This document shows positions 4,607 through 13,430 of a stretch of DNA of 45,224 nt, one piece after another. The DNA comes from an uncultured Lentisphaeria bacterium. GTDB lineage: Bacteria > Verrucomicrobiota > Lentisphaeria > Victivallales > Victivallaceae. How positions within the stretch are numbered: the first letter of the stretch is position 1; each line of letters starts with the position of its first letter. The translations under genes and the position numbers were made by a program. The notes beneath the pieces were generated by a model. It saw only the letters and a list, made by a program, of their open reading frames with translations, was not told where the DNA came from and did no database searches. The stretch spans positions 1 to 45,224 of the forward strand of contig CAIKZE010000007.1 of assembly GCA_903831825.1 (NCBI GenBank), written 5' to 3'.

Positions 4607-4873
4607 CTATTTATCTAAATCGTAAGCTAATTTATCGGTACTGATGCTCAGCAGTAACTGCGGATTCTGTTCCGCGGCCTTCTGCCATCCTTCCCTGTAC
4701 TGTTCCGGTACCTGCACTGACATTGAGCTGACGAGTTCTGTCATCTGTTGGCGTTCTGCCTGTTTTTCATCGCTGCCGGTCGCACCGGAGCCCGCACCCA
4801 GAAGAAAAAGAGACAACACAGTGATAACAGCGAAGATCGTGACTCTGCCTTTTCTGTCGTTAGAGATGAACAT
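4607..4873 (-). CDS. Small secreted or membrane-anchored protein, mraZ partner
   Basis: An 88-residue protein with a short basic N-terminus (NDRKGR), one hydrophobic segment (about residues 11-28, 'VTIFAVITVLSLFLLGAG') and a polar helical tail rich in Gln/Glu. The hydrophobic stretch could be a signal peptide or a single anchor; the tail would then be periplasmic. AAGGAG 8-9 nt before the ATG is a strong ribosome-binding site. It begins 25 nt after the mraZ-like gene and is followed by a strong terminator, so the two genes form a closed two-gene operon. It is not an FtsL: there is no leucine-zipper-like coiled coil. No family recognised. Confidence 0.6.
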   Translation of the reverse strand: MFISNDRKGRVTIFAVITVLSLFLLGAGSGATGSDEKQAERQQMTELVSSMSVQVPEQYREGWQKAAEQNPQLLLSISTDKLAYDLDK

Positions 4874-4898: not shown

Positions 4899-5384
4899 TT
4901 ACTGTATATTATCGCCAGGAATCAGGTCTGCTGCCATTTCGCGCTCACCTTTTTCTCTGGCATGTTCGTTCATTCGGTCAATTTCTTCCGCCCAGCGCTC
5001 GGTATTCCATATTTCTATGCCGATTTCCACGCCGACTACAAACACTTCACTGCCGGGATTCACCGCGGCATACTCGCGAAACGCCTGAGGCAATGTAACC
5101 CTGCCCTGATTAGATATGCTCTCAGGACTGCTCATTGCGCCGAAGCGACGCATTGAGCGGCGGAATACCATACTATTTGCGGCTTTAGCGGCAGGCAGAG
5201 TCTCCTGGCGGCGCATTTCCAGATAAATCTCCTCCGGATAGATCGCCATCGCGCCTTCCGGAAGGCAATGTATCACAACTTGCCCGCCACACTTCCCGGT
5301 AAAATCAGCAACTACCTTCGGACTTAATTTCAGTCTGCCGTTGGTGTCTACTGAACACCGGTCCTGTCCGCAGAAAGACAGCAC
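4899..5384 (-). CDS. mraZ: MraZ-family transcriptional regulator
   Basis: DNA-binding regulator with two AbrB-like swapped-hairpin domains. Domain 1 (about 9-60) contains 'VDTNGRLKLSPKVVADF' and 'EGAMAIYPEEIYLEM'; domain 2 (about 85-140) contains 'SISNQGRVTLPQAFREYAAV', 'SEVFVVGVEIGIEIW' and 'ERWAEEIDRM'. The usual family length is about 140-150; this one has 161 with a longer C-terminus. The start is GTG at 5384 with GGGAG 10 nt upstream. In most bacteria mraZ heads the division/cell-wall cluster before rsmH and ftsL; here it heads a two-gene operon with a small secreted protein. Its promoter overlaps four TGGAN boxes at 10-bp spacing, the known MraZ operator architecture, so autorepression is likely. 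Confidence 0.88.
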   Translation of the reverse strand: MLSFCGQDRCSVDTNGRLKLSPKVVADFTGKCGGQVVIHCLPEGAMAIYPEEIYLEMRRQETLPAAKAANSMVFRRSMRRFGAMSSPESISNQGRVTLPQAFREYAAVNPGSEVFVVGVEIGIEIWNTERWAEEIDRMNEHAREKGEREMAADLIPGDNIQ

Positions 5385-5413: not shown

Positions 5414-5448
5414 TTCCATTATAATCCATTATAGTCCATTATAGTCCA
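5414..5448 (-). promoter_or_regulatory. Four MraZ operator boxes (TGGAN x4, 10-bp period)
   Basis: Reading the minus strand the sequence is TGGAC-TATAA-TGGAC-TATAA-TGGAT-TATAA-TGGAA: four 5-nt boxes separated by identical 5-nt spacers. In Escherichia coli MraZ binds TGGGN direct repeats with 5-nt spacers; here the box is TGGAN. The array straddles the -10 element and start point of the mraZ promoter, which fits repression by the gene's own product. Confidence 0.8.
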
Positions 5449-6547: not shown

Positions 6548-7684
6548 TTATTCCTGATTATAATTAACTTTGCTGGATGATATAGTTTCATGCCGTCCGG
6601 CGGCGCTGAGCATAATACCGAATGAGATCAGCGTGGACAGCAGGGAGCTGCCGCCATAACTGAGTACCGGCAGGGTAATGCCGGTAGCCGGTATCAGCGT
6701 AACGTTGACGCTGATATGAATCAACGCCTGCGCCGCAAACAACAGTCCGATGCTCAGCACGAAAACCTTGCGGAATTCCGTTTCCGCCTTGAGTGAAAGT
6801 TTGAATACGGCGAAGACCAGAATTCCCATCACCACAATCAAAGGAAACGTTCCTATGAATCCCAGCGACTCCGCCAGAGACGCGAATACCGAATCGCTAT
6901 GGGCAAGCGGCAAATAGGAATTTGCCCATAGCGCCTTGCCCCACTTCATCCCCCACAATCCGCCGCGCGCCAGGGTAAACTGAAACTGGCGGATATGCCA
7001 GCCGAAACCCAGCGGATCAAGTTCAGGACACAGATAGCCTAGAATGCGGTTTAATAAGTAAGGATTGAAATTTATAATCCAGCCTGCGATGGAAAACAAT
7101 GTCGCCGGAACCAGCAGCAGATGCCAGAAGGAACCGTTCATCAGCCAGTACACGATAACGAAGCCGGCGATATATACGAGCACCGTGCCGAAATCCGGCT
7201 GCAATGCAATCGGCAGCACCCAGAGCAGGGTTATCAGCGCCATCCCCCCGAACCGCCGCATACCCGGGCGGAATTTGCCGCCAAAGTGGCACAGCGCCAG
7301 AATGAAAAAACCTTTGGCCAGTTCCGACGGCTGAATGAAAATATTGCCGACCATAAACCAGCCTTTCATGCCGTTGATTCTGACGCCGAAAATCAGCACC
7401 GCCAGCAGCGAGATGTAAAACAGCACGGTCAAAAGCTCAACATTATCCCGGTAAATCGAAAATGGAATACGGGCGCAAAGCATCATCAGGCCCATGCCTA
7501 AAACCAGCCACAGCAACTGTCTGCCGACAAAATAAAAAGGCGATACGGCATACATGGTGGCATTATAAATCGCCAAACATCCCCACAGCCCCAGCATGAA
7601 CAGCAAGCCCTGAATCAGCATTGCCAGCGGAAATACCGGCGACTCTCCGGGGAAAGCGGTAAAGTATTTATCCAGTATTTTCAT
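6548..7684 (-). CDS. SEDS peptidoglycan glycosyltransferase (FtsW/RodA family)
   Basis: Polytopic membrane protein (378 residues, about 10 helices) that polymerises lipid II into glycan strands. Family motifs are complete: 'GMKGWF', 'IQPSELAKGFF', 'LQPDFGTV', 'LAHSDSVFASLAESLGFIG' with the catalytic-type Asp, and 'PATGITLPVLSYGGSS'. The 'LPVLSYGGSS' and 'HSDSVFA' forms are close to FtsW/RodA, and I cannot tell which. The ATG overlaps the stop of the upstream gene in ATGA, with GGAG just before, so it is translationally coupled to a class B PBP fragment that lacks its transpeptidase domain. Normally SEDS proteins act with a full class B PBP. Confidence 0.93.
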   Translation of the reverse strand: MKILDKYFTAFPGESPVFPLAMLIQGLLFMLGLWGCLAIYNATMYAVSPFYFVGRQLLWLVLGMGLMMLCARIPFSIYRDNVELLTVLFYISLLAVLIFGVRINGMKGWFMVGNIFIQPSELAKGFFILALCHFGGKFRPGMRRFGGMALITLLWVLPIALQPDFGTVLVYIAGFVIVYWLMNGSFWHLLLVPATLFSIAGWIINFNPYLLNRILGYLCPELDPLGFGWHIRQFQFTLARGGLWGMKWGKALWANSYLPLAHSDSVFASLAESLGFIGTFPLIVVMGILVFAVFKLSLKAETEFRKVFVLSIGLLFAAQALIHISVNVTLIPATGITLPVLSYGGSSLLSTLISFGIMLSAAGRHETISSSKVNYNQE

Positions 7685-8376
7685 TTCACTCCAGTTTTAA
7701 TTTCGTCAAGACTGACGTCAAGTTTAACATCATTTCCGGATATTGCTTTGCGTTTAAGCAGCCAGGTTCCCTGCACCCAGTTTTTATGCCGGTCCAACAT
7801 TACTTCATAAATGCCGCAGGTGCCGGCCAGAATGCTGTCATAGTCTTTTTCAATACCGCTGACTCCGTGCTGGTTGCCGTCTTTAAACTCAACCCGCCCG
7901 ATGTAATTTCTCACTTCCGCGTAATCAACGACTTTCCGCTCGGTTCGCGGCAATATTTTCAGATCCGGGAATTTAGTCAACAATGGTTCCAACTCGAGGA
8001 TTTTATCAGGAGCAATTTCGCGTTTCAGGAGAAAATCAGAATCTTTAACCCGGTGAAACGCGGCATCCGGCAGTATTTCCATGACTTTGTGCAACGCCAT
8101 ATTCCTGATATTCTGGTCTTCTTCCGAACTGATCAGATAAAGATCAAAGTATTTTTCAGACCATGCCAGCACCCGGTCGTTTTTGTCAAGAATTCTGCCG
8201 CGTCCGGCATAATATGTGCCTTGCCGAACCGCAATTTTATTGCCCAGTTCCATATATTTCTGCCGGGCAAAAACTGAATAGTAAAATAGCCAGCAGGAGG
8301 CTAGAATTGCCCAGATCAAGATGCACCAAAGAAGTTGCGATGCCCGTATTTTAAAATTGTCGGTACTGTTTTCCAT
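7681..8376 (-). CDS. Class B PBP N-terminal (pedestal) domain without transpeptidase
   Basis: A 231-residue protein with one N-terminal membrane helix (about 14-34) and then the PBP dimerisation/pedestal domain. Signatures are 'AGRGRILDKNDRVLA' (57-71) and 'GVSGIEKDYDSILAGTCG' (171-188), the 'GxxGIEKxYDxxLxG' motif. The protein stops 11 residues after 'SGNDVKLDVS', where class B PBPs continue with 'LTIDxxLQ' and the transpeptidase domain (SxxK, SxN, KTG), all absent here. The stop codon is part of the ATGA junction with the SEDS gene, and no transpeptidase remnant exists in other frames, so it does not look like a recent frameshift. By analogy, it may anchor and activate the SEDS partner by its pedestal alone. 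Confidence 0.85.
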   Translation of the reverse strand: MENSTDNFKIRASQLLWCILIWAILASCWLFYYSVFARQKYMELGNKIAVRQGTYYAGRGRILDKNDRVLAWSEKYFDLYLISSEEDQNIRNMALHKVMEILPDAAFHRVKDSDFLLKREIAPDKILELEPLLTKFPDLKILPRTERKVVDYAEVRNYIGRVEFKDGNQHGVSGIEKDYDSILAGTCGIYEVMLDRHKNWVQGTWLLKRKAISGNDVKLDVSLDEIKTGVK

Positions 8377-8615: not shown

Positions 8616-9266
8616 TTATTGCCCTGCCGCTATAGCTTGCATCGCTTCGGCGGTAGCTTGGGTCAATGTACTGTTATAAACATCATAAGAACCATCAGTG
8701 GTAGTTATACTCTGGCCGGTTGGATAAATATAGCCCGACCAGCAGGTGCCTTGACTACCGCTTAAGCCTCTCACGAAAATATGTCCGTAATCACCGTAGA
8801 TCGCAGTTCTGTCCGCCGCCGTCGCATAACCGATCACGCCGCCGTCGTGCGGCCTTATTGTAACAAACCGGACATATTTGCGCTTGCTGAACAGGAATGC
8901 CTGGATATGGTCGATCTGCTTGGCAAGTTCCTCATCCCGCTTTTCCACGGCGGCATTGGCGGCGGCCTTTTTCAAGGCGTCCTTATAGACCATATTCCGA
9001 TATTCCAAGGCGTGTTTTTCAAATTCCGCAGCTCTGACTTCGGTGTAGCCGAACTCTTTCCGGATAGCTTCCGGCAGATCCCGGAAGTCCAGTCCCTTGA
9101 TTACGGTCGTGCCGTCCGGTTTATCATAAGATATGGTAATCCCTATAGGCGAAGTGCTGGTAATAATAACATCCTTGTATGTGGCTCCATCCAGCGTGGT
9201 AATATCACGAGCGGAAACCATTGAAATCATGCAAAAAGAAATTAAACAAATAACAAACAGCTTCAT
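8616..9266 (-). CDS. Secreted protein, tandem paralog 1
   Basis: A 216-residue secreted protein with a signal peptide (MKLFVICLISFCMISMVSA, cleavage near residue 19). A small N-terminal domain follows, 'ITTLDGATYKDV' to 'GLDFRDLPEAIRKEFGY' (about 22-75), a pattern I know from many exported Verrucomicrobia/Lentisphaerae proteins of unknown function. Next come a charged helical segment (about 76-125, ending 'KQIDHIQAFLFSKRKY') and a C-terminal beta-rich domain with 'GYGDYGHIF'-like sequence and 'GTCWSGYIYPTG'. The ATG at 9266 is chosen because GGGGAGG precedes it; the longer open frame merely reads through the conserved leader. About 60-65% identical to the next gene upstream. Function unknown. 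Confidence 0.75.
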   Translation of the reverse strand: MKLFVICLISFCMISMVSARDITTLDGATYKDVIITSTSPIGITISYDKPDGTTVIKGLDFRDLPEAIRKEFGYTEVRAAEFEKHALEYRNMVYKDALKKAAANAAVEKRDEELAKQIDHIQAFLFSKRKYVRFVTIRPHDGGVIGYATAADRTAIYGDYGHIFVRGLSGSQGTCWSGYIYPTGQSITTTDGSYDVYNSTLTQATAEAMQAIAAGQ

Positions 9267-9292
9267 TTCAGAACCTCCCCGGTTTAATGATA

Positions 9293-9354
9293 ATATAAAA
9301 ATAATCAGCCGGAATCGCAAATCAAGCACACAACCGGACAAACCATTCAAAAAA
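9293..9354 (-). repeat. Conserved 62-bp leader, copy 1
   Basis: This stretch is identical over 62 bp to 10189-10250. Both copies lie in the leader of the tandem secreted-protein paralogs, 27 nt before each ATG, and the Shine-Dalgarno region is also conserved. The identity is higher than between the coding regions, suggesting either a recent duplication with diverging coding sequence or a constrained regulatory leader. Confidence 0.7.
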
Positions 9355-9517
9355 ACCAAAAATAATTCCGGCAGGAAAAGACATCAGGAGTAACTTTACA
9401 GACATAGAGAAACGCCGTACCTGAATCAAGTACAATAAACCCGCAACCTTTGGGAACTGCAAATTCGGCAACGTTCAATGCCGCTAATTCATAAAATCCG
9501 GAACTGGTTCTTGGAAA

Positions 9518-10162
9518 TTATTCCTTTATCGCCTGTGTCACTTCAGCGGTTGCTCGTTCCAGTGAACTGTCATAAACAGCATAAACGCCGTCAGTGGTAG
9601 TTATGATCTGGTCGGTTGGATAAATATAGCCGGACCAGAAGGTGCCTTGAGAACCTTCCAAGCCTCTGACGAAAATATGACCGTAATTACCGCTCGTCAA
9701 TGTCCTGTCCGCCGACGTGGCATCGCCGATCACGCCGTCCTCGTGCTGCCTTATTGTCGTAACCCTGACATGTTTGCGTTTGCTGAAGAGGAATGCCTGA
9801 ATATGGTCCATCTGCTTAAAATCTTCTTCATTCTGTTTTTTCACGGCGGCATTGGCAATGATCTTTTTCAAAGCATCCTTATAGAGCATATCCTGATATA
9901 CCGCGACATGTTTTTCAAATTCCCTGGCTCTGGCTTCAGTATAGCCGAATTCTTTCCGGATGGTTTCCGGCAGATCTTTGAAGTCCAACCACCGGATCAC
10001 GATTGCGCCGCCCGATTGACCGTAAACTATGGTAATTCCCACAGGCGAAGAATCAGTAATAGTAACATTCTTGTAGGTGGTCCCGTCCAGCGTTGTAATA
10101 TCTCTAGCGGAAACCATTGAAATCATGAAAAAGGCAATTAAACAGAAAACAAACAGCTTCAT
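9518..10162 (-). CDS. Secreted protein, tandem paralog 2
   Basis: A 214-residue paralog of the gene at 8616-9266 with the same order: signal peptide (MKLFVFCLIAFFMISMVSA), 'ITTLDGTTYKNV' domain ending 'LDFKDLPETIRKEFGY', charged helical linker ('KKIIANAAVKKQNEEDFKQMDHIQ' region) and C-terminal domain with 'GTFWSGYIYPTDQ'. A Cys in paralog 1 (GTCWSG) is Phe here. The start at 10162 has GGGGAGG upstream; the longer open frame runs back into an inverted-repeat element and is not supported. The pair arose by tandem duplication that included the leader. Probably periplasmic or outer-surface; no function can be assigned. Confidence 0.75.
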   Translation of the reverse strand: MKLFVFCLIAFFMISMVSARDITTLDGTTYKNVTITDSSPVGITIVYGQSGGAIVIRWLDFKDLPETIRKEFGYTEARAREFEKHVAVYQDMLYKDALKKIIANAAVKKQNEEDFKQMDHIQAFLFSKRKHVRVTTIRQHEDGVIGDATSADRTLTSGNYGHIFVRGLEGSQGTFWSGYIYPTDQIITTTDGVYAVYDSSLERATAEVTQAIKE

Positions 10163-10188
10163 TTCAGAACCTCCCCTTTTCATTTCAT

Positions 10189-10250
10189 ATATAAAAATAA
10201 TCAGCCGGAATCGCAAATCAAGCACACAACCGGACAAACCATTCAAAAAA
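10189..10250 (-). repeat. Conserved 62-bp leader, copy 2
   Basis: Identical to 9293-9354; leader of the upstream paralog of the tandem secreted-protein pair. It lies between the inverted-repeat element and the coding region. Confidence 0.7.
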
Positions 10251-10332
10251 TCAAAAAAATGTCTCTTCTCCTGAATTCGTGAATCGTTTCCTGTATAAAT
10301 AACCGTATCCGTTTTTAGCGGCCAAATAATTT

Positions 10333-10388
10333 GAATATCCAATATCCCGTCCCGCAAGGCGGGATCCCGCGGATGCGGGAAATATCCA
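10333..10388. repeat. Inverted-repeat element, left arm
   Basis: About 56 bp starting GAATATCCAATATCCCGTCC, containing nested small palindromes (CCCGCAAGGCGGG; CCCGCGGATGCGGG). It is the near-perfect reverse complement of 10535-10589; the arms differ mainly in the tiny loop (GGATG versus GAA). Together with the roughly 146-bp interior this gives a 257-bp element without coding capacity, like a MITE or paired REP sequence. Confidence 0.8.
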
Positions 10389-10439
10389 ACATTCAAGGTA
10401 AAAAATATCGTTATCGCTCCTGCTTTTTTCCGGCTCCCA

Positions 10440-12265: not shown

Positions 12266-13430
12266 ATGGCAAAATTGAAGTACGATGAAAATTTTCCGGA
12301 ACGGGCCGGAGAATACGCATCCGGCGGGATGGACAATGCTGAAATCGCGGCAAAACTGGAAATATCCGAAGATACGTTTTATACTTAATCAACGGCAATT
12401 TCCGGAGTTTGCCGCCGCCGTCGAAACCGGACGGCTGGCGGTGGCGGCGGACAAAATGGAAGGCAATCTGATGAATATGGCGCTGGGGCGCTGTTTTTCC
12501 ACTACTGTCCGGCGTTCTGCCAGCGGACGCGAAACCAAGACTACCCGGCAACTTGTGCCAAACCTGAAAATGCTCATCCGCTGGCTGGAACGGAACAGCC
12601 AGTATGCCGACGACGACGATATCCCAACATCAGAACCAGTAAAAATAAACATTGCGGTTAACTCAAAGTATGATGAAAGTTTTCTGGAAGACGCCGAGCG
12701 CTATGCCGCCGAAGGTTATACTGATTTGCAGAGCTCCAGGCGGCTGGGGATTGCACTTTCATCATTCTATAATTATAAAAAGCAATTTCCGGCTTTCGCC
12801 GCCGCGCTGGACAGCGGCAAAAGGGAGTGTTACAGCAGGCTGCGTTGTCAACTGCTGGCGCTGGCATTGGGCCAATGCACCGTGCGCACCGAAACCTATC
12901 GCGACGGCGATTTCCGCAGAAGCACCGAACGGCAGCTTTCGCCCAATCTGAAAGCGATTAAGTACTGGCTCCAGTCCGGCGATGCTGAAACCGCATCTGC
13001 TCAAGGGCACTCCAAAGTCTCGGAGTTACCGGAAGACGATGGGAAGACTGGGAGGACTGAGAAGACTGGGAAGACTGGGGGTGTCACCGGAAAATCCATT
13101 GAAACTTCCACTCAACGACACTCCAAAGTCTCGGAGTCGGGCGGTTGCCCGGCCTGTTCTGCTGGCGCAGGGCAAAACAGTTCCGCTCAACGGTACTCCA
13201 AAGTCTCGGAGTCGGGCGGTTGCCCGCCCGTTGCATCCGGGTTTGATAGCCGCATGGACGAAACAGCCTATGCTCAACGGCACTCCAAAGTCTCGGAGTT
13301 GGATTCAACGGCACCCCAGACTTCCCAGTACGCCGATAAGGCCTTTGCTCAACGACTCTCTAAAATGTCGAGAAAGGAACGTCAGCGGCTGTTGAAGAAT
13401 AGACGTGAAACCCGGAGTCTGCGAGATTAA
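12266..13430 (+). pseudogene. Frameshifted two-module helix-turn-helix protein, phage small-terminase-like
   Basis: The gene starts at ATG 12266 (GGAG 8 nt upstream) with MAKLKYDENFPERAGEYASG, runs 40 codons to TAA at 12386, and continues in the +1 frame from 12387. Skipping one T (ACT-T-AAT) restores a 387-residue product. It contains two tandem copies of one module: 'KYDENF..A..YASGG' to 'PNLKMLIRWL', and 'KYDESF..A..YAAEG' to 'PNLKAIKYWL'. Each has a predicted helix-turn-helix followed by 'FY....QFPEF', like helix-turn-helix or small-terminase proteins of prophages. The last 130 residues are low-complexity and built from an interspersed DNA repeat (HSKVSE units). It may be a decayed gene, an assembly error or a rare programmed +1 shift. 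Confidence 0.65.
13009..13364. repeat. Five coding copies of the CACTCCAAAGTC repeat
   Basis: Copies of gctcaacggcactccaaagt begin near 13008, 13119, 13194, 13281 and (degenerate) 13356, spaced 111, 75, 87 and 75 nt, all multiples of three. The core ACTCCAAAGTCTCGGAGT is an imperfect palindrome, and two copies are followed by CGGGCGGTTGCCCG hairpins. Translation gives repeated (Q)RHSKVSE. A 9-bp array of the form gggaagact lies between copies 1 and 2 (about 13040-13078). Confidence 0.75.

Follow-up and report, generated by a model that had tools for sequence, protein, structure and literature searches.

A pedestal-only relative of class B PBPs encoded with a third SEDS-family protein in Lentisphaeria

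The standard pairs of a SEDS polymerase and a class B penicillin-binding protein (bPBP) are RodA-PBP2 of the elongasome (PDB 6pl5 and 8tj3) and FtsW-FtsI of the divisome (PDB 8bh1). Mutations that affect SEDS activation have been reported in the strand that follows the transmembrane (TM) segment of FtsI and PBP2, in FtsI at G57, S61, and L62 (PMC8078798). The bPBPs PBP2B of Bacillus subtilis and PBP1 of Staphylococcus aureus are required for division even if catalytically dead (PMC8078798). In B. subtilis, the nonenzymatic RodA activator RagB (YrrS) has been proposed to stimulate the SEDS polymerase (PMC12457691). The model in which the pedestal domain of a bPBP acts as a switch for its SEDS partner is based on structures and mutants, in each case of proteins that have enzymatic activity as well.

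Here we describe a locus at which the enzyme appears to have been removed by evolution and the switch kept, across a bacterial class. It lies in a stretch of 45,224 nucleotides (the window), which is contig C7 of a metagenome-assembled genome of 5.9 Mb in 506 contigs (93.5% complete, 3.5% contaminated). The named relatives of the window are Lentisphaeria/Victivallaceae, and include G002 (CAIPAT01, an uncultured Lentisphaeria bacterium) of the same genus. The relevant features, all on the minus strand, are as follows.

7681 to 8376 (-): pedestal-only PBP-like protein of 231 aa, with a TM helix (residues 10 to 36) and a pedestal (38 to 221) but no transpeptidase domain
6548 to 7684 (-): SEDS3 (378 aa), a third member of the SEDS family, with D264 of an HSDS motif in the place of the catalytic Asp
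7681 to 7684 (-): ATGA overlap of 4 bp, with the SEDS3 ATG within the pedestal stop
4899 to 5384 (-): mraZ2, encoding a putative second MraZ of 161 aa (PF02381, 51.2 bits), here downstream of the cassette
5414 to 5448 (-): four TGGAN direct repeats at an exact 10-bp spacing, MraZ-box-like, upstream of mraZ2
4607 to 4873 (-): small single-pass membrane protein of 88 aa, homologous to the protein encoded between mraZ2 and the pedestal elsewhere

As in RodA-PBP2, a SEDS protein is encoded beside a one-TM pedestal protein, but the partner lacks the transpeptidase domain, SEDS3 falls in a clade apart from RodA, and the pair is not linked to mreCD. The likeness to FtsW-FtsI lies in the sequence profiles, which score best against FtsW and FtsI, and in the MraZ and small membrane protein encoded upstream, which resemble the head of the dcw cluster; here, too, the transpeptidase domain is missing and the clades are separate. 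PBP2B and PBP1 show that a bPBP can be needed for SEDS activation even if it does no cross-linking itself (PMC8078798), as would be the case for the pedestal. In PBP2B and PBP1, however, the domain is kept and was inactivated in laboratory mutants or blocked by drugs, whereas in the Lentisphaeria it is naturally gone across a class. RagB resembles the pedestal in being a nonenzymatic protein proposed as a SEDS stimulator, but it is a separate RodA-binding protein. The pair shares the layout of SEDS-bPBP synthases, but its partner protein is missing the enzymatic half and its SEDS protein belongs to a clade of its own. In a search of the openly accessible literature, we found no published description of a transpeptidase-less SEDS pedestal partner or of the Lentisphaerae pair.

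The sole Pfam match of the 231-aa protein is PBP_dimer (PF03717; 52.9 bits, residues 56 to 199). It thus has the TM anchor and the dimer domain of a class B PBP, while PF00905, with its SxxK, SxN, and KTG motifs, is absent from the protein in the Pfam search; in its own genome PF00905 matched three other loci and not this gene. An AlphaFold2 model based on 30 homologues (mean pLDDT, 91) predicts a TM helix followed by a whole pedestal, and its top Foldseek match in the PDB is 6pl5_B, the PBP2 of the Thermus thermophilus RodA-PBP2 complex (E, 2.3e-12; 228 alignment columns). The sequence profile scored highest against Pseudomonas aeruginosa FtsI (64 bits), to which homology can be followed as far as ...LALSIDL, where the transpeptidase domain begins. 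Only about 10 residues separate this point from the stop, so that the end of the gene coincides with the domain border. The first-pass annotation had read this gene as a class B PBP reduced to its pedestal, with a stop 11 residues past the expected border, and domain content, model, and alignment bear it out on both counts. The pedestal head is the most variable part of the protein (mean entropy, 2.6 bits, against 1.8 bits for residues 38 to 60). This post-TM segment, in which R38, Y41, G45, A49, and R59 are almost invariant, aligns by homology with the segment of FtsI and PBP2 that carries the SEDS activation mutations.

A gene that looks truncated in so fragmented a metagenome assembly might simply be a broken class B PBP gene, whether by frameshift, assembly error, or decay into a pseudogene. 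Yet a pedestal match was present in 53 of 61 relatives, nearly always in an open frame of 200 to 290 aa, and about 96 of the 159 sampled Lentisphaeria genomes carry the short form, among them the type strain of Victivallis vadensis (DSM 14823) and strains zth2 and WC36, both of which have complete chromosome sequences. Furthermore, dN/dS between congeneric genomes is 0.09 to 0.11 for the pedestal (0.07 for SEDS3), indicative of purifying selection, and the interval between the pedestal and SEDS genes is too small to fit a transpeptidase domain. On the basis of this conservation in isolates and complete genomes, we reject the broken-gene explanation, to which we give practically no credence. 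The truncation had been taken for genuine from the single sequence, and this holds: close relatives are devoid of the transpeptidase domain at the same site, and the short gene was found beside a SEDS gene across the Lentisphaeria.

With the family profile, short forms in a phylum sample of 388 genomes were confined to the Lentisphaeria, all matches in other classes lying in frames of 455 to 700 aa; none was found outside the class at E ≤ 1e-10. Likewise, no short pedestal was established outside the class among the PF03717 matches listed, which include one 354-aa frame in G094. The 44 short pedestals in the tree form one clade (support, 100/99), separate from the FtsI and PBP2 pedestals. Given this midpoint-rooted tree, the simplest history would be that the transpeptidase domain was lost once, ahead of the diversification of the class.

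SEDS3 is a complete protein of the SEDS family (FTSW_RODA_SPOVE, PF01098; 227.9 bits), and its 4-bp overlap with the pedestal gene recurs at 18 of 27 homologous loci, in agreement with the initial view that the truncation is embedded in an ATGA overlap with an intact FtsW/RodA-family gene. Its profile scored highest against FtsW (224 bits), but SEDS3 does not belong to either equivalog, judging from its scores against the NCBIfam cut-offs (ftsW, 217.4 versus 337.5; rodA, 207.7 versus 336.7) and from its position in the tree. The FtsW of the same genome also stays below the ftsW cut-off (303.6), while its RodA exceeds the rodA cut-off. All 30 SEDS3 sequences group together (100/100) outside FtsW and RodA on a long separating branch (1.17), adding a third SEDS clade to these two. 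SEDS3 also has the class-specific motifs GWHI.QF and W.N.YLPL..SDS. Conceivably, such divergence in branch length, scores, and motifs could mean that the product of SEDS3 is not ordinary peptidoglycan: it might polymerize another lipid-linked glycan, or move lipids, and would then have no need of a transpeptidase. We regard this as improbable, since the active-site residues of FtsW and RodA are retained and the operon includes a putative gene for MraZ, which regulates genes for division and the cell wall. D264, W109, Q118, P163, D164, G166, G335, and SYGG are invariant across 26 SEDS3 sequences, and the FtsW active-site positions W138, Q147, P196, G199, D297, G371, and G381 (residues as named in PMC8765783) are kept, as is the ECL4 position A270. 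The exception is R243 of FtsW, which SEDS3, like RodA, does not have.

The standard systems are all encoded in the same genome, in ftsL-ftsI-murC on C351, ftsW-murG on C250, mreC-mreD-PBP2 on C39, and a rodA gene adjoining purA on C90; in the tree the C90 protein groups with RodA and that of C250 with FtsW. We therefore rejected the idea that the new pair is the only FtsW or RodA system of this genome. Given the full-length FtsI and PBP2 and the canonical FtsW and RodA, it must be an extra pair. The full-length class B PBPs for which the first-pass annotation had proposed a search are thus present elsewhere in the genome, and its view that the pair differs from a standard PBP2/RodA or PBP3/FtsW pair holds. 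What the wider comparison adds is that this third pair is ancient and class-wide, that a putative second MraZ is linked to it, and that in a few lineages the pedestal persists with no SEDS3 next to it. A near-identical second copy of mreC-mreD-PBP2 is found on C317 (loci L044 and L045 are C39 and C317 of G000), probably reflecting a strain mixture in the assembly.

In the complete genome of WC36, FtsI and PBP2 are the only transpeptidase-domain genes, and cross-linking there would therefore have to be carried out by these two or by transpeptidases of other families. Of the 159 sampled Lentisphaeria genomes, 108 have no class A PBP (PF00912), and the genus of the window is among those without. 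We do not claim that the pedestal replaces them: the negative association is weak (P = 0.009, uncorrected for kinship; 23 genomes have both, 73 only the pedestal, 28 only a class A PBP, and 35 neither), and V. vadensis has both.

SEDS3 adjoins the pedestal at 39 of 41 loci, both exceptions belonging to genus g16, in which the two genes are unlinked (in G017, SEDS3 is on another contig). Beyond the order of the window, mraZ2, pedestal, and SEDS3 occur together at most loci. Within the order, three SEDS genes were found in 11 of 12 genomes with a pedestal and in none of the 15 without (Fisher P = 9e-7, uncorrected for kinship); the latter have two SEDS genes each, save for one genome with a single gene and one with an additional 19-bit fragment. 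Both genes have been lost together in several lineages, even within one genus: in g7, the genus of Victivallis, G025 has retained the two genes, and G008, G033, and G113 have neither. The adjacency and co-inheritance expected of a SEDS-bPBP pair are thus observed, with f9, f83, and G192 as exceptions.

These exceptions speak against a strict pair. A pedestal without an adjacent SEDS3 is found in family f9 (G092, G166, and G334), in G399, and in G192, mostly with mraZ2. In G092 (L201, G092:C1:659800-668500) the short pedestal coexists with full-length FtsI and PBP2 and a single SEDS gene, of the RodA type. Either SEDS3 was lost or missed in f9, G399, and G192, or the pedestal serves a second function. 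Possibly, the pedestal regulates the canonical synthases, by competing with PBP2 or FtsI for RodA or FtsW or by scaffolding them, and its link with SEDS3 is secondary, as its retention in f9 and G399 (in most cases with mraZ2 and the small protein) and the lone RodA-type SEDS of G092 might suggest. We think this unlikely in view of the co-loss described above. In addition, pedestal distances track those of SEDS3 (correlation 0.84, partial 0.78; the highest among the wall proteins tested) and not those of FtsW (partial, -0.24) or RodA (partial, 0.28), all in eight genomes.

A role as a transpeptidase-less SEDS activator fits the conserved SEDS-facing segment, the SEDS active site, the co-loss, and the correlated evolution. 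From the kept active site of SEDS3, the post-TM strand, and the precedent of PBP2B and PBP1, we infer a dedicated nonenzymatic activator. We consider it likely that SEDS3 is a glycan polymerase working with this activator, that the pedestal stems from a class B PBP which lost its transpeptidase domain once, before the Lentisphaeria radiated, and that cross-linking is left to other enzymes; the main reason for not stating this more firmly is the set of pedestals in f9, G399, and G192 that have no adjacent SEDS3. The pedestal would dock on SEDS3 via its TM helix and the strand right after it, and would hold or switch SEDS3 into an active state, as the pedestals of PBP2 and FtsI do for RodA and FtsW. 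It would not cross-link by itself. For strands made by SEDS3, presumably from lipid II, the cross-links might come from FtsI, PBP2, other transpeptidases, or, in genomes that encode them, class A PBPs.

More tentatively, and with somewhat less than even confidence, we suggest that the Lentisphaeria possess in this pair a third peptidoglycan machine, of ancient origin, in which a SEDS protein is run by a dedicated nonenzymatic pedestal under its own MraZ and activation is naturally split from cross-linking. Such a machine may build a layer of the wall that is deployed separately or has few cross-links, or perhaps stand in for the class A PBPs that most genomes of the group lack. As a natural pair, it offers a test of whether activation is separable from cross-linking and whether a pedestal alone suffices to activate a SEDS protein, and it raises the question of how cells manage a polymerase without a built-in cross-linker.

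Elsewhere in the class, mraZ2 sits immediately upstream of the pedestal in most families, and the ancestral operon is mraZ2, small membrane protein, pedestal, and SEDS3. The mraZ2 product matches PF02381 but stays below the NCBIfam cut-offs. MraZ operator repeats are of the TGGGN type. Repeats similar to the TGGAN array of the window precede mraZ2 at L055 to L057, L063, L090, L096, L202, L203, L217, L220, and L229, and together with mraZ2 they suggest a paralogue of the dcw regulator that controls its own expression. No MraZ-box repeats were found upstream of the pedestal itself at the 27 loci scanned. The small membrane protein has no confident family match; elsewhere, proteins of about 88 to 116 aa occupy this FtsL-like operon position (L055:6910-7209, L098:5585-5902, L202:1927-2196, and L214:4760-5032), their similarity to that of the window being judged by eye.

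Upstream of the pedestal, the window contains tandem paralogous open reading frames for secreted proteins (8616 to 9359 and 9518 to 10396, minus strand), apparent relatives of which lie just upstream of the pedestal at L046, L049, L050, L051, L054, L072, and L076. In several Victivallaceae (L058, L059, L060, L061, L086, L103, and L105) a HAMP/HisKA kinase-like gene, at some loci accompanied by an MFS transporter, immediately precedes the pedestal. Finally, DNA translating to NGTPKSRS- or KVSESGGCP-like peptides, at 12285 to 13430 of the window and also at L041, L042, and on other contigs of the genome, looks like a dispersed repeat.
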